Positions 5,688 to 47,856 of a DNA stretch of 50,361 bases are shown in pieces (within the stretch, counting starts at the first letter, position 1; every line of letters begins with the position of its first letter). The stretch covers positions 1 through 50,361 of the forward strand of contig JAQSWV010000056.1 of assembly GCA_029266455.1 (NCBI GenBank). Reading direction: 5' to 3'. The stretch comes from Nocardioidaceae bacterium (GTDB lineage Bacteria; Actinomycetota; Actinomycetes; Propionibacteriales; Nocardioidaceae). Both the position numbers and the translations under genes were made by a program. The notes below the pieces were generated by a model, which was not told where the DNA came from, did not search any database, and saw only the letters and a program-made list of their open reading frames with translations.

Positions 5688-6652
5688 CCGGGTGGCGGTC
5701 CGAGCCGTCGGCCGGAGAGGTCCCGCAGCCCCCCGTCGCCTGGGCCGGCGTGCGGCACGGCTGCCTGGCCGCGGGCGACTGGGTGCGCCTCACCGATGCC
5801 AAAGGTCGGCGCCACAACATCCGGCTGGGTGCGGGGGAGCAGTTCTTCACCTCCAAGGGGTCGATCGAGCACGACGACCTGATCGGTGGCCCCGAGGGGG
5901 TCGTCGTCACCTCGAGCAAGGGCACCCAGTACCTCGCGTTCCGACCGCTGCTCTCGGAGTACGTCGTCTCGATGCCCCGCGGAGCGGCGGTCGTCTACCC
6001 CAAGGACGCGGCGCAGATCCTCACCTCGGCCGACATCTTCCCCGGCGCGCACGTGGTGGAGGCCGGCGCCGGCTCGGGGTCGCTGAGCGCCTACCTGCTG
6101 CGGGCCGTGGGCCCGACCGGTCGGGTGTCGTCGTACGAGCGGCGTGCCGACTTCGCAGAGATCGCGAGACGGAACGTCGAGCAGTTGTACGGCGGCGAGC
6201 ACCCTGCGTGGCAACTGTCGGTCGCCGACCTGACGGAGGCGCTGCCCGCGTCCACCGACAGGGACGTCGACCGGGTGGTTCTGGACCTGCTGGCCCCCTG
6301 GGAGTGCGTCGACGTGGTGGCCGACGCCTTGACCCCTGGGGGGATCGTGTGCGCCTACGTCGCCACGACCACCCAGCTCGCCCGTGTGGTCGAGACGCTG
6401 CGCGTGCACGGTGGCTTCACCGAGCCGCACGCGTGGGAGACGATGGTGCGTGGGTGGCACGTGGAGGGCCTTGCGGTGCGTCCCGAGCACTCGATGGTCG
6501 GGCACACCGCGTTCCTGGTCACGGCCCGCCGGATGGCACCCGGCCAGAGCCCACCGACGCGTCGCCGGCGGCCCGCGCCGGGCTCGTACGGTCCTGACTA
6601 CACCGGCCCCCGCCCCGCAGAGTCTCGTGACGGTCCCGCGACGTCCGCGTGA
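5684..6652 (+). CDS. trmI: tRNA (adenine-58-N1)-methyltransferase TrmI
   Basis: 322 residues. A small N-terminal beta domain (about 25-95) precedes a class I SAM-dependent fold with motif I EAGAGSGSL at 126-134 and the acidic SAM-binding end of beta 2 at SSYERR. A motif resembling the catalytic loop appears as VVLDLLAPW. The enzyme methylates N1 of A58 in the T-loop of tRNA as a homotetramer. The gene lies immediately before the proteasomal ATPase gene, the usual actinobacterial arrangement. Its GTG start overlaps the protease gene by 4 bp. The C-terminal 30 residues are Arg/Pro-rich and probably disordered. Confidence 0.9.
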   Translation: MTGWRSEPSAGEVPQPPVAWAGVRHGCLAAGDWVRLTDAKGRRHNIRLGAGEQFFTSKGSIEHDDLIGGPEGVVVTSSKGTQYLAFRPLLSEYVVSMPRGAAVVYPKDAAQILTSADIFPGAHVVEAGAGSGSLSAYLLRAVGPTGRVSSYERRADFAEIARRNVEQLYGGEHPAWQLSVADLTEALPASTDRDVDRVVLDLLAPWECVDVVADALTPGGIVCAYVATTTQLARVVETLRVHGGFTEPHAWETMVRGWHVEGLAVRPEHSMVGHTAFLVTARRMAPGQSPPTRRRRPAPGSYGPDYTGPRPAESRDGPATSA

Positions 6653-6730
6653 CGATCCCGACACGTGCCGATCAACCCATGGGGCGGCCCCGGTCGCCGG
6701 GGTATGGTCGGAAAACCTGGAGGTGGTCCT

Positions 6731-8350
6731 GTGAGCGAGCCCGAGGAGACCCGTTCGCCGGCTGAGCTGGCGAGCGAGATCGCCTACCTGCGTGCGGAGG
6801 TCGACCACTTGCGCCGCCGCGCGTCCGGCGGGTCGGTCGAGGTTCGCGCGGTGGAGGCCCGGCTTGCCGAGACCCAGGCGCGACTCGCGTCGGTGTCCAC
6901 GCAGAACGACCGGCTTGCCAGCACGCTGCGCGAGGCGCGCGACCAGATCACGACCCTCAAGGAGGAGGTCGACCGGCTGGCGCAGCCGCCAGCCGGCTAC
7001 GGAACCTTCCTGGAGACCCACGACGACGGCACCGTCGACGTCTTCACCGGTGGCCGCAAGATGCGGGTGTCGGTCAGCCCCACCGTGGACCTCGACGCGC
7101 TGGCGCGGGGCCAGGAGGTCATGCTCAACGAGGCGCTGAACGTCGTCGAGGCCTGCCGGTACGAGACGGTGGGCGAGGTCGTGATGCTCAAGGAGGTCCT
7201 GGCCGACGGCGACCGTGTGCTGATCATCGGCAACGCCGACGAGGAGCGTGTGGCCCGCATCGCCGCTCCGCTGCGGGAGGTGAAGCTGCGCGCCGGAGAC
7301 TCGCTGCTGCTCGACGTCCGCGCCGGATACGTGTACGAGAAGGTGCCGAAGTCGGAGGTCGAGGAACTCGTTCTCGAAGAGGTGCCCGACATCGACTACA
7401 CCAGCATCGGCGGCCTCACCGGGCAGATCGAGAGCATCCGCGACGCCATCGAGCTGCCGTACCTGCACCCTGACCTGTTCACCGAGCACCAGCTCAAGCC
7501 GCCCAAGGGCATCCTGCTGTACGGGCCGCCCGGGTGTGGCAAGACGCTGATCGCCAAGGCGGTCGCGAGCTCGCTGGCCAAGCAGGTCGCTGCCAAGACC
7601 GGGCAGGAGGGAAGGAGCTTCTTCCTGAACATCAAGGGCCCCGAGCTGCTCAACAAGTACGTGGGTGAGACCGAGCGGCACATCCGGCTGGTGTTCCAGC
7701 GAGCGCGCGAGAAGGCCAGCGAGGGCACCCCCGTCATCGTCTTCTTCGACGAGATGGACTCGCTGTTCCGCACCCGTGGCTCCGGGGTGTCCTCCGACGT
7801 CGAGAACACCATCGTTCCCCAGCTGCTCAGCGAGATCGACGGTGTCGAGGGCCTCGAGAACGTCATCGTGATCGGCGCCTCGAACCGCGAGGACATGATC
7901 GACCCCGCGATCCTGCGGCCCGGCCGTCTCGACGTGAAGATCAAGATCGAGCGGCCGGACGCCGAGTCGGCGCGCGACATCTTCAGCAAGTACCTGCTGG
8001 CCGAGCTGCCCCTGCACGCGGACGACCTGGGCGAGTTCGGGTCCGACCGGCAGGCCTGCGTGTCCGCGATGATCCAGCGCACGGTGGAGCGGATGTACAC
8101 CGAGTCGGAGGAGAACCGCTTCCTCGAGGTCACCTACGCCAACGGTGACAAGGAGGTCCTGTACTTCAAGGACTTCAACTCCGGCGCGATGATCCAGAAC
8201 ATCGTCAGGGGCTTCGGGTGCAGCACCTCCTGCAGGCGTGCGTCGACGAGTTCAAGGAGAACGAGGACCTCCCCAACACCACCAACCCCGACGACTGGGC
8301 GCGGATCTCCGGCAAGAAGGGCGAGCGCATCGTCTTCATCCGCACGCTGA
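6731..8350 (+). CDS. mpa: Proteasome-associated AAA ATPase Mpa/ARC, frameshifted near the 3' end
   Basis: GTG 6731 is chosen because GGAGGTGG lies just upstream and the Mpa-like N-terminus begins there. A Pup-binding coiled coil spans about residues 12-84 and the tandem OB region about 88-215. The AAA module has Walker A GPPGCGKT at 265-272 and Walker [10 protein letters not shown] at 335-343. The protein follows the family to NIV at residue 492 (codon 8204), then changes frame. The remaining 47 residues to the stop at 8348-8350 are a low-complexity Arg/Ser/Thr/Pro tail unlike Mpa. From my memory of mycobacterial and Streptomyces Mpa/ARC, about 17 residues are missing here, equivalent to a loss of about 49 bp (3n+1). 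Mpa normally recognises pupylated proteins and threads them into the 20S core, docking through its C-terminal GQYL, which this frame lacks. Confidence 0.85.
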
Positions 8351-8421
8351 TCTCCGGCAAGCAGGGCAGCGAGCCCGGCCGCTCGATCGACACTGTCGCC
8401 AACACCGGGCAGTACCTCTAG
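8209..8421 (+). pseudogene. Out-of-frame C-terminal fragment of Mpa carrying the GQYL docking tail
   Basis: In the frame one base behind mpa, the sequence from GGG 8209 reads [15 protein letters not shown] and continues as a clean match to the Mpa/ARC C-terminus, including [20 protein letters not shown] and the terminal GQYL before the stop at 8419-8421. The penultimate tyrosine of this tail is what opens the 20S gate in mycobacteria. A GTG at 8218 could start translation of a 67-residue peptide, but no ribosome-binding site stands out. The simplest reading is the severed 3' end of mpa, from a genuine deletion or a sequencing/assembly error. Confidence 0.8.
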
Positions 8422-8473
8422 GGCGATCGACGGGGAGGAGCGCCGGGACGGGCCCCGCCCTTGTGTCGCCCCA

Positions 8474-8502
8474 GTGCGGCCCTTGTGCGGCCCTTGTGCG
8501 GC
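8474..8502 (+). repeat. Short tandem repeat, 11-bp unit
   Basis: The unit GTGCGGCCCTT occurs at 8474-8484 and 8485-8495, followed by a partial copy at 8496-8502. It lies in the gap between mpa and the acetyltransferase gene. It is too short for a functional guess. Confidence 0.6.
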
Positions 8503-8549
8503 ATGGACCGCGTCGGCGGGTGCACTGGCCCGGCGCCTAGCCTGGTCGG

Positions 8550-9044
8550 GTGCTGCCGACGTGCCTGTGCGTGGTGGGCTACGACCACCCCGACGTCGCC
8601 CCCCTGGTCCAGGAGGTGCAACAGGAGTACGTGCGCCGCTACGGCGGCGAGGACTCCACGCCCTTGGCAACGGACATGTTCGTGCCTCCGACCGGGCTCT
8701 TCTTCGTGGTCTACGACCACGGGGCAGCCGTCGCCATGGGCGGTTGGCGCCGCCACGACGAGACGCGTGACGGCTCGGTGCCCGGGGTCCGGGCGGCGGA
8801 GGTCAAGCGCATGTACGTCACCCCACGCGCTCGAGGCAGGGGGCTGGCGCGTGCCCTGCTGGTCCACCTCGAGCGGACCGCGTCCGAGGCCGGCTGCGAC
8901 ATGATGGTGCTGGAGACGGGGCGGGTCCAGCCCGAGGCGCTGGCGCTCTATCGGTCCGCCGGTTACGCCGACATCGCGCCTTTCGGCCACTACACCGAGT
9001 CCGAGCTCAGCGTGCACCTGGGAAAGCGTCTGCTCCCATCCTGA
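8550..9044 (+). CDS. GNAT-family N-acetyltransferase
   Basis: 164 residues with the GNAT fold. The acetyl-CoA pyrophosphate-binding motif A appears as VTPRARGRGLARALL (R/Q-x-x-G-x-G/A pattern), preceded by a strand ending VKRMYV and followed by the family's LETG and ALALYRSAGY (motif B) elements. The substrate is unknown. It stands alone between the mpa remnant and a convergent DUF3054 gene. The GTG start at 8550 is tentative, because the upstream region lacks a strong Shine-Dalgarno. Confidence 0.8.
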   Translation: MLPTCLCVVGYDHPDVAPLVQEVQQEYVRRYGGEDSTPLATDMFVPPTGLFFVVYDHGAAVAMGGWRRHDETRDGSVPGVRAAEVKRMYVTPRARGRGLARALLVHLERTASEAGCDMMVLETGRVQPEALALYRSAGYADIAPFGHYTESELSVHLGKRLLPS

Positions 9045-9070
9045 AGCCCAACGGACTCCCCCCGGCGCCG

Positions 9071-9451
9071 TCACCCAGGGCGACGGGGGAGCCGGACGAG
9101 CAGCCGCCAGCCGGTCAGGCCCACGCCGAGGGTGACCGTCGCCACGACGGCGAACGTCAGCGGAGGAGGGTTGCCGGCGACCGCCCGCAGGGCCAGGCCG
9201 CCGGCAACCGTGGCACCCCAGACGACAGCCCCGGTGGACAGGGAGCCGGGCTGCCGCCACGCGCGCGTCAGCAGCCAGCCCGCCACCGTGCCGGCCAGAA
9301 ACGGTGCGGCGGTGCCGGCGACCCCGCTGACGTTCAGGCCCTCCGCGTGGCTGCTGCGGCCGATGGCCGCGAAACCCACCACGGTCGCGACGTCCAGCAG
9401 CAGCAGCGACGGCCGCCTCACGCCGGTGGCCGCCACGACAGGCTGTCTCAC
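9071..9451 (-). CDS. DUF3054 family small membrane protein
   Basis: About 126 residues from GTG 9451; a longer form starting at ATG 9481 is possible but would leave only 14 bp before the divergent dop start. It has four hydrophobic segments and the FAAIGRSSHAEG motif that typifies DUF3054 (a conserved Gly-Arg-x-Ser-His after the first helix). The function of the family is unknown. It is transcribed divergently from dop, so the short 9452-9495 interval must hold both promoters or their 5' ends. Confidence 0.75.
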   Translation of the reverse strand: MRQPVVAATGVRRPSLLLLDVATVVGFAAIGRSSHAEGLNVSGVAGTAAPFLAGTVAGWLLTRAWRQPGSLSTGAVVWGATVAGGLALRAVAGNPPPLTFAVVATVTLGVGLTGWRLLVRLPRRPG

Positions 9452-9495
9452 GCGCCTACCGTAGAGGGCGTCGTCGCCCACCGTAGGCTGGCGGC

Positions 9496-11007
9496 ATGAG
9501 CGTGCACCGGGTCATGGGCACCGAGGTGGAGTACGGCATCTCCGTGCAGGGACAGCCGACCGCGAACCCGATGCTCGCCTCGACCCAGGTCGTCAACGCC
9601 TGGGCAAACGCCGGGGCGCGCGCACGGCGAGCCCGTTGGGACTTCGAGGAGGAGAACCCGCTTCGCGACGCCCGGGGCTTCGAGCTGGGCCGTGACGTCG
9701 CTGACAGCACCCTGCTGACCGATGAGGATCTGGGCCTGGCCAACGTGATCCTCACCAACGGGGCCCGGCTGTACGTCGACCACGCCCACCCCGAGTACTC
9801 GACTCCGGAGTGCACCGGCCCGCGCGACGTCCTGGTGTGGGACAAAGCCGGCGAGATGGTGATGCGGCGTGCGGCCGCGCTGGCCTCGGCGCAGCCGAAC
9901 ACGCCGCCGCTGCTGCTGTACAAGAACAACGTCGACAACAAGGGCGCCAGCTACGGTGCGCACGAGAACTACCTGATGGAGCGGGCGACGCCGTTCGGCG
10001 ACATCGTGGCGCACCTGATCCCGTTCTTCGTGACGCGCCAGGTGATGTGTGGGGCAGGTCGGGTCGGCCGCCGCCAGGACGGCAGCGAGTCGGGGTTCCA
10101 GATCAGCCAGCGGGCGGACTACTTCGAGGTCGAGGTGGGGCTCGAGACGACGCTCAAGCGGCCGCTGGTCAACACCCGTGACGAGCCGCATGCCGACCCG
10201 CAGAAGTACCGGCGACTGCACGTCATCATCGGTGACGCGAACCTGGCCGAGATCTCGACGCTGCTCAAGCTAGGGACCACTGCACTGGTGCTGCGCATGA
10301 TCGAGGACCGGGTGCTGCCGGGCGGGCTCGCGCTGGAGCGCCCCGTCCGCGAGCTCCGGGACGTCTCCTACGACGCCTCGCTCACGCACCTGCTCCGGCT
10401 CAAGGACGGCCGGGAGATGACGGCCGTACAGGTGCAGTGGGAGTACCTCGAGCACGCACGCAAGCACGTCGAGCGCACGCTCGGCAGTGACGTGGACGCC
10501 GAGACCGCGGAAGTGCTGCAGCGCTGGGAGTCGGTACTGACCCGGCTGGAGACCGATCCCATGACCTGCAAGGACGAGCTCGACTGGGTCGCCAAGCTCG
10601 CACTGCTGGAGTCTTACCGCGACCGTGACGGGATCGACTGGGACCATCCCAAGCTGGCGTTGATCGACCTCCAGTACTCCGACGTTCGTCCGGACAAGGG
10701 CCTGTACCACCGCCTTGTCCGTCTGGGGCGGATGCAGCGGCTGGTCGACGAGTCCGAGGTGGAGGCGGCGGTGACCCATCCACCCGGTGACACCCGGGCG
10801 TACTTCCGGGGCCGTTGCCTGGCCAAGTACCCCGAGCAGGTGGCTGCGGCGTCGTGGGACTCGGTGATCTTCGACCTGCCGGGGCGTGACTCGCTGCAGC
10901 GGGTGCCCACGCTCGAGCCGCTGCGCGGCACCCGCGAGCACGTCGGGGCGCTGCTCGACCGCTGCGACACGGCCGAGCAGCTGTTCGAGGCCCTGACCCG
11001 GCGCTGA
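9496..11007 (+). CDS. dop: Deamidase/depupylase of Pup, Dop
   Basis: 503 residues, the family's usual length. It belongs to the glutamine-synthetase-like carboxylate-amine superfamily: the ATP/Mg-binding start reads GTEVEYGI at residues 8-15, and the catalytic-region aspartate is D95 in [19 protein letters not shown]. The segment of about 40-80, including the basic/acidic stretch [20 protein letters not shown], corresponds to the Dop-specific loop that separates Dop from PafA. Dop deamidates the C-terminal Gln of Pup to Glu and also removes Pup from substrates. ATG 9496; the next gene is pup. Confidence 0.95.
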
Positions 11008-42704: not shown

Positions 42705-43676
42705 GTGCGCGTGCCTGCACCTGATCCCCGCCCCCTGGGCAGCTCCGGACTTCTCGTCAGCAGGGTCGGTCTCGGCTGCAACGCCTTCGGCCGGCGGATC
42801 GACCGCGACCAAACCAGGGCGGTCGTCCGTGCGGCCCTCGACGCGGGAGTGACGCTCTTCGACACCGCCGACATCTACGGTGACGAGCCGGGGGCCAGCG
42901 AGACGCTGCTGGGGGAGATGCTGGCGGATCTGCCTCCCGGTGAACGTGCGGACGTCGTCGTGGCCACGAAGTTCGGCATGGACATGACGGGCGCCAACGG
43001 GACCGACCATGGCGTCCGTGGCTCGCGCCGCTACATCCGCCGGGCCGTCGAGGCCTCCCTGCGCCGGTTGCGCACCGACCACGTCGATCTCTACCAGCTG
43101 CACGAGCCCGATCCGGTGACACCGATCGAGGAGACCCTCGCAGCACTGCACGACCTGGTCACCGAGGGCAAGGTGCGCTACCTCGGATCGTCGAACTTCG
43201 CCGGCTGGCAGGTGGTCGACGCCGACTGGGTGGCGCGAAGCGCCGGGGGCACGCCGTTCGTGTCGGCGCAGAACAAGTACTCGCTGTACGACCGCTCCGC
43301 CGAGACTGAGCTGGTGCCGGCCTGCCAGCACGTGGGGGTGGGGCTGCTGCCGTTCTACCCGCTCGAGTACGGGCTGCTCACCGGCAAGTACAAGCGTGGT
43401 GAGCAGGCGCCCGAGGGATCGCGGCTGAGCATCCAGACCTCCCGGCTCGAGGGGGCGGACTTCGACCGGATCGAACGGTGCGAGGCGTACGCCGCCGAGC
43501 GTGGGCTGACGATGCTGCAGGTGGCCATCGGCGGTCTCGCGGCGCAGCCGGCGGTCGCGTCGGTGATCGCCGGGGCCACCACGCCGGAGCAGGTGGTCGC
43601 GAACGTCGAGGCCGGCGGCTGGGAACCCACCAGCGACGACCTTGCGGCGCTGGACGACGCAACCTCGCCGTCGTGA
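42705..43676 (+). CDS. Aldo/keto reductase
   Basis: 323 residues. The AKR catalytic tetrad can be traced: Asp in LFDTADIYG, Tyr in ADIYGDE, Lys in VVVATKFGM and His in LYQLHEPDPV. The C-terminal NADP-binding segment reads GLLTGKYKRGE and SVIAGATTPEQVVANVEA. The family reduces aldehydes and ketones with NADPH; the substrate is unknown. GTG 42705 or the in-frame GTG 42711 could be the start. The adenosine deaminase gene begins 4 bp inside the stop. Confidence 0.87.
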   Translation: MRVPAPDPRPLGSSGLLVSRVGLGCNAFGRRIDRDQTRAVVRAALDAGVTLFDTADIYGDEPGASETLLGEMLADLPPGERADVVVATKFGMDMTGANGTDHGVRGSRRYIRRAVEASLRRLRTDHVDLYQLHEPDPVTPIEETLAALHDLVTEGKVRYLGSSNFAGWQVVDADWVARSAGGTPFVSAQNKYSLYDRSAETELVPACQHVGVGLLPFYPLEYGLLTGKYKRGEQAPEGSRLSIQTSRLEGADFDRIERCEAYAAERGLTMLQVAIGGLAAQPAVASVIAGATTPEQVVANVEAGGWEPTSDDLAALDDATSPS

Positions 43677-44686
43677 CCGCTCTTCAGGACTGGCTCGGCG
43701 GCCTCCCCAAGGTCGAGCTGCACGTCCATCTGGTGGGGTCCGCGTCGGTGCCGACGGTGCTGGAGCTGGCGCGTCGCCATCCCGACAGCGGCGTTCCCAC
43801 CGAGGAGGCGGCGCTTCGCCAGTTCTACGCCTTCACCGACTTCGCCCACTTCATCGAGGTATACATCGCGGTCGACGCGCTCGTGCGCACCGCCGACGAC
43901 GTGGCGGCCATCGCCTCCGGTGTGCTGGCCGACCTGGCGGCCCAGCAGGTGCGTTACGTCGAGCTGACGGTGACTCCTGACAGCCACCTGCTGAAGGGCA
44001 TCGCGCCGGACGGGCTGGCCGAGGCTCTCGTGCGCGCTCGGGATCGGGCCTGGCAGAAGCATGGCCTGCTGGTGGGTTGGGTCTATGACATACCCGGCGA
44101 GCTCGGCCTGGAGTCGGGGGAGCGGACCATCGACTGGGTGGAGCGGTGGGCGCCCGAGGGCTCGGTCGGCTTCGGGCTCGGAGGGCCGGAGATCGGCGTA
44201 CCCCGACCGCAGTTCGCCGACGTGTTCGCGCGGGCCCGGGCGCTGGGTCTGGCGAGCCTGCCGCACGCCGGTGAGACCACTGGGCCGCAGACGGTGTGGG
44301 ACGCCGTGCACGTGCTCGGCGCCCAGCGCATCGGGCACGGCCTGGCCGCCGCTCAGGACGAGGCACTCCTGCAGCACCTCAGCGAGAACCGGATCGCGCT
44401 CGAGGTGTGCCCCACCTCCAACCTGCGCACGCGTGCCGTGGCAGACCTGGCCGACCACCCGTGGCACACCTTTCGCGACGCCGGGGTGACCGTGACCCTC
44501 AACTCCGACGATCCTGGGATGTTCGACACCTCGTTGACCCGCGAGTGCACCGTCGCCGCCCAGGCGTTCGAGCTGGGTCGTCCGGAGCTCGCAGACCTGA
44601 TGCGCACCGCGCTCGATGTCTCGTACGCGCCGGATGCGGCCCGTCAGCGGGTGCGTGCGGAGGTCGACGCCTACCCCCTGGGCTGA
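43673..44686 (+). CDS. add: Adenosine deaminase-family amidohydrolase
   Basis: 337 residues from GTG 43673. The metal and catalytic residues are H17 and H19 (ELHVHLVG), the HAGE motif, RIGHG and the NSDDP motif. It should hydrolyse adenosine (or a related aminopurine nucleoside such as an aminodeoxyfutalosine-type compound) to inosine plus ammonia. The usual HLEG is HLVG here, and that residue contributes to substrate fit, so adenosine specificity is not certain. It overlaps the aldo/keto reductase gene by 4 bp. Confidence 0.85.
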   Translation: MTALQDWLGGLPKVELHVHLVGSASVPTVLELARRHPDSGVPTEEAALRQFYAFTDFAHFIEVYIAVDALVRTADDVAAIASGVLADLAAQQVRYVELTVTPDSHLLKGIAPDGLAEALVRARDRAWQKHGLLVGWVYDIPGELGLESGERTIDWVERWAPEGSVGFGLGGPEIGVPRPQFADVFARARALGLASLPHAGETTGPQTVWDAVHVLGAQRIGHGLAAAQDEALLQHLSENRIALEVCPTSNLRTRAVADLADHPWHTFRDAGVTVTLNSDDPGMFDTSLTRECTVAAQAFELGRPELADLMRTALDVSYAPDAARQRVRAEVDAYPLG

Positions 44687-44782: not shown

Positions 44783-46465
44783 ATGCGTCGTCCACTGATC
44801 CTGGCGGTTGACGGGGACCAGCCCGCGCTCGAGCGGCTGCGTCATGAGCTGGACCGCCGCTACGGCTGTGACTACCGGGTGGTCGGGCACAGCAGCGGTA
44901 CCGCCGCGATGAACGAGCTCGGCGACTACCACCGCCGTGGTGACGCGGTGGCCCTGGTCCTGGTCGCCGAACAGATGCCCGACATGGCGGGCGTCGACCT
45001 GCTGGCGAAGACCCGCAGCCTGCACGGCGAGGCCCGGCGAGCGATCTTGATCTCATGGGGCGACTGGGCGAACCGCGACACGGCGGATGCGATCCTGCAG
45101 GCGATGGCGGCGGGCCACGCCAACTACTACGTGCTCAAGCCGTGGTCGTCACCTGACGAGCTGTTCCACCGTACGGTCGCCGAGTACCTGCAGGACTGGT
45201 CTCGCAACGAGGTCGAGTCGAGGCGCGAGGTGCTGGTTGTCGGCGACCGGCGCTCGGCGCGCGGGCACGAGGTGCGCGATCTGCTGACCCGCAACGGGAT
45301 CCCCCATGCCTTCCACGACCGCGAGTCCTCCCGCGGGGAGGGCGTGCTCGCCCGCACCGGTCATGCGCGCTCTGATGTCCGCCTGGTGGTCTGGATGCCC
45401 GCCCTGGGCGGTCAGGCACTCGCCGATCCGACCGACGCCGAGATCGTCGAGGCTTGGGGGATTCCCACCTCGCTGCCCGAGGACGACCGTACGTTCGACC
45501 TCCTGGTCGTCGGCGGCGGGCCTGCGGGTCTCGCGGCTGCCGTGTACGGCTCTTCCGAGGGCCTGCGCACCCTTGTGGTCGAGCGATCCGCCATCGGCGG
45601 CCAGGCGGGGGCAAGCTCGTTGATCCGCAACTATCTGGGCTTTGCGCGCGGGCTGAGCGGAGCCGAGCTCGGCCAACGGGGCTTCCAGCAGGCGTGGGTC
45701 TTCGGCGCCCGGTTCGTGCTCACCCGCGATGTGGTGGCGCTCCGCCCCGACAACGGCGGCTGGGCCGCCGACGTCAGCGGGATCGGCACCGTGCGGGCCC
45801 GGGCGGTGGTGCTCGCGTGCGGCGTGACCTACCGCCGACTCGAGATCCCGACACTCGAGTCGCTGGCCGGGGCCGGGGTGTTCTACGGGGCCAGCGTGTC
45901 CGAGGCCCAGGGTCTCGTGGGCCGGACGGCAGTGGTGGTGGGAGGCGGGAACTCGGCCGGCCAGGCGGCGTTGCACCTCGCCCGCTACGCGGCGCGTGTC
46001 CACCTGGTCGTCCGCGCGGCAGATCTGGGGAGCGGCATGTCCGACTACCTGGTGCGACAGATCGCCGCCACGGACATCGATGTGCGCACCGGTGCGGAGG
46101 TCGTCGACGGTGGGGGAGAAGCGGCCCTGGACTGGGTGACCGTGCAGGACAGGGCCAGCGGGCGACTCGACCGGTTGGTGGCCGACGGGCTGTTCGTGAT
46201 GATCGGCGCCCGGCCGGGGACCGGCTGGCTCCCGTCCGACGTGGCACGCGACGCCCACGGCTTCGTGCGGGTCGGCAACGACCTGCAGGGTGCGTGGTCG
46301 CTCGACCGGCCGCCGCAGCCGTACGAGACGTCAGCGCCGGGACTGTTCGCCGTCGGCGACGTCCGAAGCGGGTCGGTGAAACGGGTGGCCTCGGCCGTGG
46401 GTGAGGGATCCGTGGTGGTCTCGCAGGTGCACAGCCATCTCAGCCGGGAGGCGGTGCGGGTGTGA
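44783..46465 (+). CDS. Receiver-like domain fused to a thioredoxin-reductase-like FAD oxidoreductase
   Basis: 560 residues. Residues 1-135 fold like a response-regulator receiver: the acidic pair is reduced to D10 and D12, the phosphoacceptor position is A62 in LVAEQMPDMAG, and K119 in LKPW is kept. A middle segment (about 148-210) resembles a glutaredoxin-like domain without cysteines. The C-terminus is a two-dinucleotide-fold flavoprotein (FAD GGGPAG at 244-249, NADPH GGGNSAG at 387-393). The active-site CxxC of thioredoxin reductase is replaced by FYGASVSEA (367-375). So it lacks the receiver phosphosite and the dithiol, suggesting a sensory role. The next gene overlaps it by 4 bp. Confidence 0.85.
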   Translation: MRRPLILAVDGDQPALERLRHELDRRYGCDYRVVGHSSGTAAMNELGDYHRRGDAVALVLVAEQMPDMAGVDLLAKTRSLHGEARRAILISWGDWANRDTADAILQAMAAGHANYYVLKPWSSPDELFHRTVAEYLQDWSRNEVESRREVLVVGDRRSARGHEVRDLLTRNGIPHAFHDRESSRGEGVLARTGHARSDVRLVVWMPALGGQALADPTDAEIVEAWGIPTSLPEDDRTFDLLVVGGGPAGLAAAVYGSSEGLRTLVVERSAIGGQAGASSLIRNYLGFARGLSGAELGQRGFQQAWVFGARFVLTRDVVALRPDNGGWAADVSGIGTVRARAVVLACGVTYRRLEIPTLESLAGAGVFYGASVSEAQGLVGRTAVVVGGGNSAGQAALHLARYAARVHLVVRAADLGSGMSDYLVRQIAATDIDVRTGAEVVDGGGEAALDWVTVQDRASGRLDRLVADGLFVMIGARPGTGWLPSDVARDAHGFVRVGNDLQGAWSLDRPPQPYETSAPGLFAVGDVRSGSVKRVASAVGEGSVVVSQVHSHLSREAVRV

Positions 46466-47856
46466 GCCAGCAGCGAACGTCGACCGCGCGCCTCGTCGCT
46501 GCAGGGCTCGCCCTCGCGCTGCCGCTGCTGGGTTTCGGCCTGCTGCTGGCCGAGCCGTCGCTCGACCTGATGTGGGCGCACGAGCCGTCGCACTTCTGGC
46601 TGGTTCTGACGGTGGCGGCGCTCAGCTCGCTGCTGGCGTACGGGACCGGGGTGGCCGCCCAACGACGTGCTGACGTCCGCGTCTTCGTGGTGTCGCTGGC
46701 GTACCTGGCGTCGGCCGGCTTCCTGGGCCTGCACGCACTGGCCACACCCGGAGTCCTGCTGGAGGCCACGAACCCGGGCTTCGCGATGGCGACACCTGTG
46801 GGCCTGACCCTCGGTGCGGTGTTCGCCGCGCTGTCATGCGTCGACGTGCCCGCTGACCGGGCGCAGTCAGCCCTGCGCGCGGCCCGGACCGCCCGGTGGG
46901 TGCTGCTGGCCACCATGGCCGCCTGGGCGGTGGCATCGCTGGCGAAGCTGCCGCCGCTCGACGGGTCGCGCGCCGTCGAGCGGGCCTCCGGTCCGCTCGT
47001 GGTCCTGGCCGTCCTGGCCATCGGTCTGTACGCAGTGGCGGCCCTGCGGTACCTGGTGCTCGGGCTTCGGCGTCGGGCGACCATGTTGTTGGGAATGGCC
47101 GCCGCGTTCACCCTCCTCGGTGAGGCGATGGTGGCGGTGGCCTTCGCCCGCAGCTGGCACGTCAGCTGGTGGGAGTGGCACGTGCTCATGCTTGCGGCCT
47201 TCGCGTTGGTGGCCTGGAGTGCACAGCAGCAGTGGCACGAGGAGCGGTTCGCCGAGCTCTACCTGGACGACACCCTGGCGGGCAGCCGGGACATGAGCGT
47301 CCTGTTCGCCGACCTGCAGGGGTTCACCAGCTACTCCGAGACCCACAGCGCCGGTGAGGTGACGGCGATGCTCAATACCTACTTCGAGCAGGTCGTGCCC
47401 GTGACCGTGCACCGGTACGGCGGCGAGGTGGACCGGCTGATCGGCGACGCCGTGCTGGTCACGTTCAACCGACGTGGTGACAGGCCGGACCACGCGGAAC
47501 GCGCGGCGGCTGCCGGACTGGCCCTGCAGGAGGCGGCCGCGGAGGTGAGCCGGGTGCATCCCGACTGGCCGCGCTTCCGGGTGGGCATCAACTCCGGAGA
47601 GGTGTCGGTGGCGGTGCTGGGCGCAGCCGGCGGGCGGACCCACACGGTGATCGGTGACACCGTGAACACTGCCTCCCGGCTCGAGGGCAAGGCTCCCGTA
47701 GGTGGCGTCGCCATCAGCGCCGAGACCGCCGCCCGACTGGCGGGGGCGCGTACCCAGCCGCTGGGCCTGTTGGAGCTGAAGGGGAAGACAGAGCCGCTGC
47801 AGGCCTTCCATCTGCTCGGGCTCGATGGCGCCGACGGCGGGGGTGGCCGGTCCTGA
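46462..47856 (+). CDS. Membrane-bound class III nucleotidyl cyclase
   Basis: 464 residues. About eight membrane helices in residues 10-255 form an unrecognised N-terminal sensor domain. The class III catalytic domain begins at DMSVLFADLQGFT: metal-binding D284 and D329, the transition-state pair N402 and R406 in VIGDTVNTASRLE, and D399 at the adenine-specifying position. The lysine that normally reads the base is R325 (VDRLIGDA). GTG 46462 overlaps the flavoprotein gene by 4 bp, so the two are co-expressed and may communicate. Adenylate is more likely than guanylate cyclase because of D399. Confidence 0.88.
   Translation: MSQQRTSTARLVAAGLALALPLLGFGLLLAEPSLDLMWAHEPSHFWLVLTVAALSSLLAYGTGVAAQRRADVRVFVVSLAYLASAGFLGLHALATPGVLLEATNPGFAMATPVGLTLGAVFAALSCVDVPADRAQSALRAARTARWVLLATMAAWAVASLAKLPPLDGSRAVERASGPLVVLAVLAIGLYAVAALRYLVLGLRRRATMLLGMAAAFTLLGEAMVAVAFARSWHVSWWEWHVLMLAAFALVAWSAQQQWHEERFAELYLDDTLAGSRDMSVLFADLQGFTSYSETHSAGEVTAMLNTYFEQVVPVTVHRYGGEVDRLIGDAVLVTFNRRGDRPDHAERAAAAGLALQEAAAEVSRVHPDWPRFRVGINSGEVSVAVLGAAGGRTHTVIGDTVNTASRLEGKAPVGGVAISAETAARLAGARTQPLGLLELKGKTEPLQAFHLLGLDGADGGGGRS

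Follow-up and report, generated by a model that had tools for sequence, protein, structure and literature searches.

The membrane domains of Rv1625c, a membrane-bound class III nucleotide cyclase, have been argued to be receptors (PMC12505454). Fusions of a receiver domain to a thioredoxin reductase (TrxR)-like protein are catalogued in the P2CS database, but only as a class of probable response-regulator enzymes, EC 1.8.1.9 (PMC2716373). Thiol-free TrxR homologues fused to receiver or cyclic nucleotide monophosphate (cNMP)-binding domains are common in actinobacteria, and no described function was found for them in the open-licence literature. Here, we analyse a locus of a Nocardioidaceae bacterium (GCA_029266455.1; 3.43-Mb draft genome, 128 contigs, six such homologues) in which the gene for one of these flavoproteins overlaps that of a membrane-bound class III cyclase. 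The window, meaning the whole stretch of DNA analysed, comprises 50,361 nt of contig JAQSWV010000056.1. The flavoprotein gene (44783-46465, forward strand, as are all features below) has an ATG start and encodes 560 residues with receiver-like, glutaredoxin-like and TrxR-like domains, the last of the flavin adenine dinucleotide (FAD)/NADP type without CxxC. The cyclase gene (46462-47856) has a GTG start and encodes 464 residues with an eight-helix membrane domain. The two share the 4 bp GTGA (46462-46465), which hold the cyclase start and the flavoprotein stop, and it is this overlap that suggests co-transcription; scans for promoters and terminators at the locus gave nothing above chance. The reading frames and the overlap proposed in an initial annotation of this DNA were recovered by open reading frame calling, and its eight-helix cyclase by AlphaFold2.

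Compared with the closest known systems, each protein has both shared and divergent features. Like Rv1625c, the cyclase combines a membrane domain, a linker and a class III catalytic domain, but it has eight MASE3-like helices instead of six, an arginine (R325) in its base pocket and a dedicated flavoprotein partner. The flavoprotein has the FAD and NAD(P) domains and the fold of low-molecular-weight TrxR (TIGR01292), but lacks the CxxC and adds receiver-like and glutaredoxin-like domains. It shares its three-part architecture and the missing CxxC with other actinobacterial receiver-TrxR-like fusions; typical members of that family, however, have a canonical receiver and stand beside kinases or other genes, whereas the clade described here has a pseudo-receiver and a cyclase. 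The annotation named no described system with this exact pair, and the open-licence literature likewise yielded nothing relevant on the pair, on the link of this membrane domain to MASE3 or on flavoprotein-regulated class III cyclases. The protein families themselves are known; no description of their pairing, of the pseudo-receiver clade or of the MASE3 link was found there.

Conserved pairing of the flavoprotein and cyclase genes

The flavoprotein gene lies directly upstream of the cyclase gene in 60 of the 80 loci from named genomes that carry this cyclase, across many genera, the nearest relatives being Nocardioidaceae and other actinobacteria. Among the paired loci, 30 have an overlap of 8 bp and 19 one of 4 bp (the choice of start codons favoured sites close to the flavoprotein stop, so that exact overlaps are approximate). 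The remaining 20 loci have no upstream flavoprotein, several of them lying near contig ends. Within a set of 57 relatives, a flavoprotein ortholog (59-65% identity) occurs in six genomes, and these alone also hold a full-length ortholog of the cyclase that is more than 60% identical (61-67%), with the two genes adjacent each time; two more relatives have the membrane domain, G025 (45%) and G056 (48%), and no flavoprotein neighbour. At the order level, pairing is seen in 29 of the 30 loci, the window counted. The survey of gene neighbourhoods proposed with the annotation thus gave no random association in relatives, and the pair is both conserved and co-inherited. A chance neighbour was ruled out by the adjacency in all three sets. 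No third gene family is common to different genera around the pair, and there is no cyclase in the DNA read around some 28 flavoprotein paralogs of lower score.

The two phylogenies agree with this picture. Paired cyclases form one clade (SH-like approximate likelihood ratio support 97, or 99 in a larger set) with few losses, and paired flavoproteins likewise form one (support 93). Partner distances correlate at 0.92 over 54 pairs. When each genus is represented once the value is 0.81, where shuffling reaches at most 0.40; species relatedness contributes to the correlation. In one close relative, the flavoprotein is split by an in-frame stop next to an intact cyclase (L009/L058 on G022:C296, and L072), from either assembly error or decay.

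A second flavoprotein is found beside the same type of cyclase. In L142 (1984-3459) and L112 (101-1045, truncated by the contig end), a Pyr_redox_3-type protein of 491 residues, with no receiver, overlaps the downstream cyclase gene by 4 bp. A class-wide search around L142 placed a partner of this type upstream of the cyclase in seven Thermoleophilia-type genomes (L142, L112, L216, L218, L226, L227 and L233; L214 and L215 duplicate L142 and L112 and were not counted); in five of these genomes the genes overlap by 4 bp. The cyclases concerned fall into two groups outside the clade paired with receiver-TrxR proteins, some of them with altered active-site motifs, and receiver-TrxR pairs are also found in the same class; by inspection, the other unpaired Thermoleophilia cyclases have no flavoprotein upstream. 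In this other lineage the second flavoprotein has independently taken the place of the first as partner; both types come from one broad oxidoreductase superfamily, which means that a different family was recruited but not an unrelated fold. That different FAD/NAD(P) proteins have been recruited to this position more than once is, in our view, the strongest indication that flavin redox is relevant to the cyclase. Together with co-inheritance, it supports in part the redox-sensing unit proposed in the annotation, namely as far as the cyclase and a redox flavoprotein functioning as a unit is concerned.

The cyclase and its membrane domain

The AlphaFold2 model of the cyclase (mean predicted local distance difference test, pLDDT, of 90.9) consists of eight membrane helices, a linker and then the catalytic domain. 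Pfam finds only Guanylate_cyc (PF00211, residues 277-445, 1.5e-23, 83.7 bits against a cut-off of 21.9), and the fold is matched by CyaB (3r5g) with a Z-score of 26.6. The class III catalytic domain (residues 275-455; 47284-47826) retains the two metal-binding aspartates D284 and D329 and the transition-state residues N402 and R406, which are present in all 74 aligned cyclases. At the base-specifying position, lysine, accompanied by Asp or Thr in the base pocket, is typical of adenylate cyclases and glutamate of guanylate cyclases (compare the KDA-to-EGY entry among the fold matches). In the window cyclase T395 is present and the lysine is replaced by R325 (47434-47436), an arginine shared by 58 of 59 paired cyclases; in lineages without the receiver-TrxR partner the position is occupied by K, H, Q, R or S. 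R325 precedes the second metal aspartate by four residues, the spacing of R142 to D146 in the cytidylate cyclase EaPycC (PMC11224242). With arginine in place of Lys or Glu, and arginine also in EaPycC, the cyclic nucleotide produced therefore cannot be named from sequence.

Pairing also correlates with changes in the cyclase linker, in addition to those of the base pocket. In the segment WHEERF (residues 258-263; 47233-47250), which joins transmembrane helix 8 (TM8) to the catalytic domain, W258, E260 and R262 are present in 59 of 59 paired cyclases and mostly changed in unpaired ones. These pairing-linked residues could be where the partner acts. Downstream of some GAF-containing cyclase relatives, from Micromonosporaceae, Paractinoplanes and Nocardia, Crp-family genes overlap or abut the cyclase (L136:7995-8663, L141:8043-8711 and L149:7947-8606).

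The membrane domain (residues 8-255; 46483-47226) has predicted helices at residues 8-30, 43-69, 72-92, 105-124, 131-160, 177-204, 207-228 and 232-255. Pfam reports no family on this half of the window cyclase, MASE3 included, and its profile found no solved structure, the fold matches of the cyclase all coming from the catalytic domain. Weak MASE3 matches occur in 27 of 74 cyclase relatives (best 5.6e-5). With the same profile, an eight-helix membrane domain of the same kind was found in HD-GYP proteins (L203, L204, L207 and L208). One HD-GYP protein passes the MASE3 model (PF17159) with 43.8 bits against a cut-off of 31, and hhalign aligns the cyclase with the HD-GYP membrane domain over 257 columns (probability 99.3, E-value 4e-20). 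Judging by these profile comparisons, the membrane domain of the cyclase is a distant relative of MASE3-like sensors and is common to HD-GYP proteins: it is homologous to a MASE3-scoring domain, although the window cyclase itself has no MASE3 match and those of its relatives are weak. The domain, which the annotation had left unassigned, is no longer wholly so.

Residues common to the cyclase and HD-GYP membrane domains include D35, H44, H91, a TPG motif, N104, the two tryptophans of SWWEWH and H240. Three invariant histidines stand out, at the outer end of TM2 (H44; 46591-46593), at the outer end of TM3 within LHALATPG (H91; 46732-46734) and in TM8 within SWWEWH (H240; 47179-47181). Given eight helices and a C-terminus inside the cell, the shared residues would all lie close to the outer face or on it, where a pocket for a ligand or a metal would be expected. 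The domain common to cyclases and HD-GYP proteins is a candidate sensor with a predicted outward-facing His/Trp pocket.

A thiol-free flavoprotein with a pseudo-receiver

For the flavoprotein, Pfam reports Pyr_redox_2 (1.7e-29) and a sub-threshold Response_reg match (27.4 bits against 30.2), and AlphaFold2, using 56 orthologs, gave a model with a mean pLDDT of 89.0. Its fold matches all come from the TrxR part, the first 230 residues lying outside their coverage, with Z-scores of 32.5 to 5vt3 and 32.4 to 1f6m. Alignment and fold match place the FAD/NAD(P) module at residues 236-556 (45488-46450). The FAD motif GGGPAG (residues 244-249; 45512-45529) has G244, G246 and G249 invariant in the ortholog alignment, and the glycine motif within the NAD(P) motif GGGNSAGQ (387-394; 45941-45964) is also invariant, from which binding of FAD and NADPH is likely. 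Alignment to TrxR places GASVS (369-373; 45887-45901) at the CxxC site, and the protein, which has only two cysteines in all, contains no CxxC. FAD/NAD(P) motifs and fold of a thioredoxin reductase are thus present and the redox-active CxxC is absent, and the score of 173 bits falls below the TIGR01292 equivalog cut-off of 343. The retained motifs (GGGPAG and GGGNSA) and the loss of CxxC agree with the annotation. All compared paralogs lack the CxxC too, which makes its loss older than the pairing; as a trait special to the pair it was ruled out.

We read the middle segment (residues 148-228; 45224-45466) as glutaredoxin-like, with a predicted β-α-β-α-β-β-α order (150-225) and no redox cysteine; a paralog in the same genome, L069, has a weak PF00462 match there. 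When superposed on Lactococcus lactis TrxR, the flavoprotein model is much nearer to the flavin-reducing structure 5mh4 (root-mean-square deviation 2.3 over 299) than to the flavin-oxidising 5mjk (6.4 over 296), which is no more than suggestive.

The N-terminal domain (residues 1-143, fold 5-142; 44783-45211) departs from a phospho-accepting receiver, with its acidic pair, Asp, Thr/Ser and Lys. It has D10 without a second adjacent acid, alanine at the phosphoacceptor position by alignment (A62; 44966-44968) and the sequence W92-G-D-W95 (45056-45067) in place of the Thr region, while K119 is retained. Across the paired clade, A, H, P or other residues stand in place of the second acid, and both tryptophans of the W-G-x-W-like motif are invariant in 56 of 56 paired flavoproteins and absent from canonical paralog receivers. 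The degenerate receiver of the annotation holds for the whole paired clade as regards the second acid and the Thr region; A62 itself is local, the column being D62 in 48 of the 56, and was rejected as a hallmark of the system in favour of a lineage-specific change. Among the 16 paralog receivers compared, most retain D-D, D, T and K. In this clade the receiver has given up phospho-chemistry and gained an invariant Trp surface.

Five more receiver-TrxR-like paralogs (L066-L070) are encoded in the same genome, G000, on contigs C55, C104, C98, C21 and C111, with no cyclase beside any of them in the DNA read around them. The receivers of L069 and L070 adjoin histidine kinases; in L070 (C111), a histidine kinase gene with a cNMP-binding domain (6447-7940) overlaps that of the paralog flavoprotein (7937-9772). 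At L037 (823-2733), a cNMP_binding domain is fused to the same CxxC-free TrxR-like core. This fusion resembles the window flavoprotein in its core and in its tie to cyclic nucleotides, but its input domain is on the same chain and not a separate cyclase.

Possible coupling of flavin state and cyclase

We favour, at about even odds, a flavoprotein docked on the membrane cyclase as its regulator, with the NADPH/flavin state modulating second-messenger output. The two proteins, made from the same mRNA, would form one membrane-attached signalling unit, in which the invariant His, Trp and Asp residues of the MASE3-like domain build, on the outer side, a pocket for a ligand or a metal and the catalytic domain makes cyclic nucleotide inside the cell. 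The flavoprotein would dock through its pseudo-receiver, its phospho-switch chemistry lost, onto the linker between TM8 and the catalytic domain, and its FAD would be reduced by NADPH. Because it has neither a CxxC nor a redox cysteine in the glutaredoxin-like part, electrons cannot reach thioredoxin; therefore the signal that raises or lowers cyclase output would be the state of the flavin module, whether redox or nucleotide-bound, by way of rotation of the reductase domain. A more elaborate proposal can be put forward only tentatively: a flavin-redox-gated cyclase in which an NADPH-reading, thiol-free TrxR homologue is the regulatory subunit, an outside signal is integrated with the cytoplasmic NADPH/flavin state, the product is possibly not cAMP, and the arrangement has arisen more than once with different flavoproteins.

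Several observations weigh against regulation of the cyclase by its partner. Many cyclases related to this one share its membrane domain and work with no flavoprotein beside them, cofactor binding is deduced from motifs only, and the AlphaFold2 conformer says little about a resting state. In the relatives of the flavoprotein (L069, L070 and L037), moreover, the flavin module looks like an output and not a sensor. The kinase with a cNMP-binding domain, the L037 fusion and the Crp genes beside GAF-containing cyclase relatives make the opposite direction a serious rival, if on the whole an unlikely one: the membrane cyclase would sense, and the outside signal or the cyclic nucleotide would switch an NADPH-dependent reductase acting on an unnamed acceptor. 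The N-terminal domain is the input in the flavoprotein family (canonical receivers beside kinases, L070, L037), and the cyclase bears a membrane sensor domain of its own. However, the paired flavoprotein has a pseudo-receiver in place of a cNMP-binding domain, a diffusible messenger needs no overlapping gene, and a second flavoprotein family in the same place is hard to square with one specific enzymatic output.

Delivery of NADPH electrons by the flavoprotein to a heme, metal or quinone at the His/Trp site of the membrane domain, setting cyclase activity, would suit the three invariant histidines, the Trp-rich motif and the repeated pairing with FAD/NAD(P) proteins. It is nevertheless quite improbable, given that all three histidines are in the predicted outer half, far from the cytoplasmic flavoprotein, that the pocket residues are kept in flavoprotein-free cyclases and HD-GYP proteins, and that no known cofactor-binding family was matched. 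Slim chances are also left to shared regulation, whereby both genes belong to the same stress response and are co-expressed without contact of their products. Overlapping genes alone indicate co-expression and not contact, and cyclases of the wider family have other neighbours (the Crp genes of L136, L141 and L149) or stand alone; yet the gene order is fixed, the overlap is tight, the trees match and show few losses, there is no third partner, and changes in cyclase linker and receiver co-occur, all of which speaks for more than co-expression. A remnant of a Pycsar-like anti-phage system is very improbable indeed: the catalytic domain is matched by PycC models from PADLOC (3.4e-20 at best) and R325 shares the EaPycC spacing, but Lys-type cyclase relatives taken as controls match these models as well or better, which makes the match generic, and no cNMP-binding transmembrane or TIR effector is adjacent, the neighbours being adenosine deaminase, the flavoprotein and an AlkZ-like protein.

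If the flavoprotein does regulate the cyclase, the conserved, co-inherited pairing would give thiol-free TrxR homologues a first testable role, linking NADPH/flavin state to second-messenger signalling by a route not found described. Cyclases paired with the receiver-TrxR protein, unpaired cyclases and cyclases paired with the other flavoprotein form a natural test set.

The surroundings of the pair vary between genomes. An adenosine deaminase gene on the same strand (43670-44686) ends 96 bp upstream of the flavoprotein gene; it is not conserved beside the pair elsewhere, and neither it nor a third gene was retained as part of the unit. Besides the adenosine deaminase, the Pfam scan of the window identifies an AlkZ-like protein among the neighbours.

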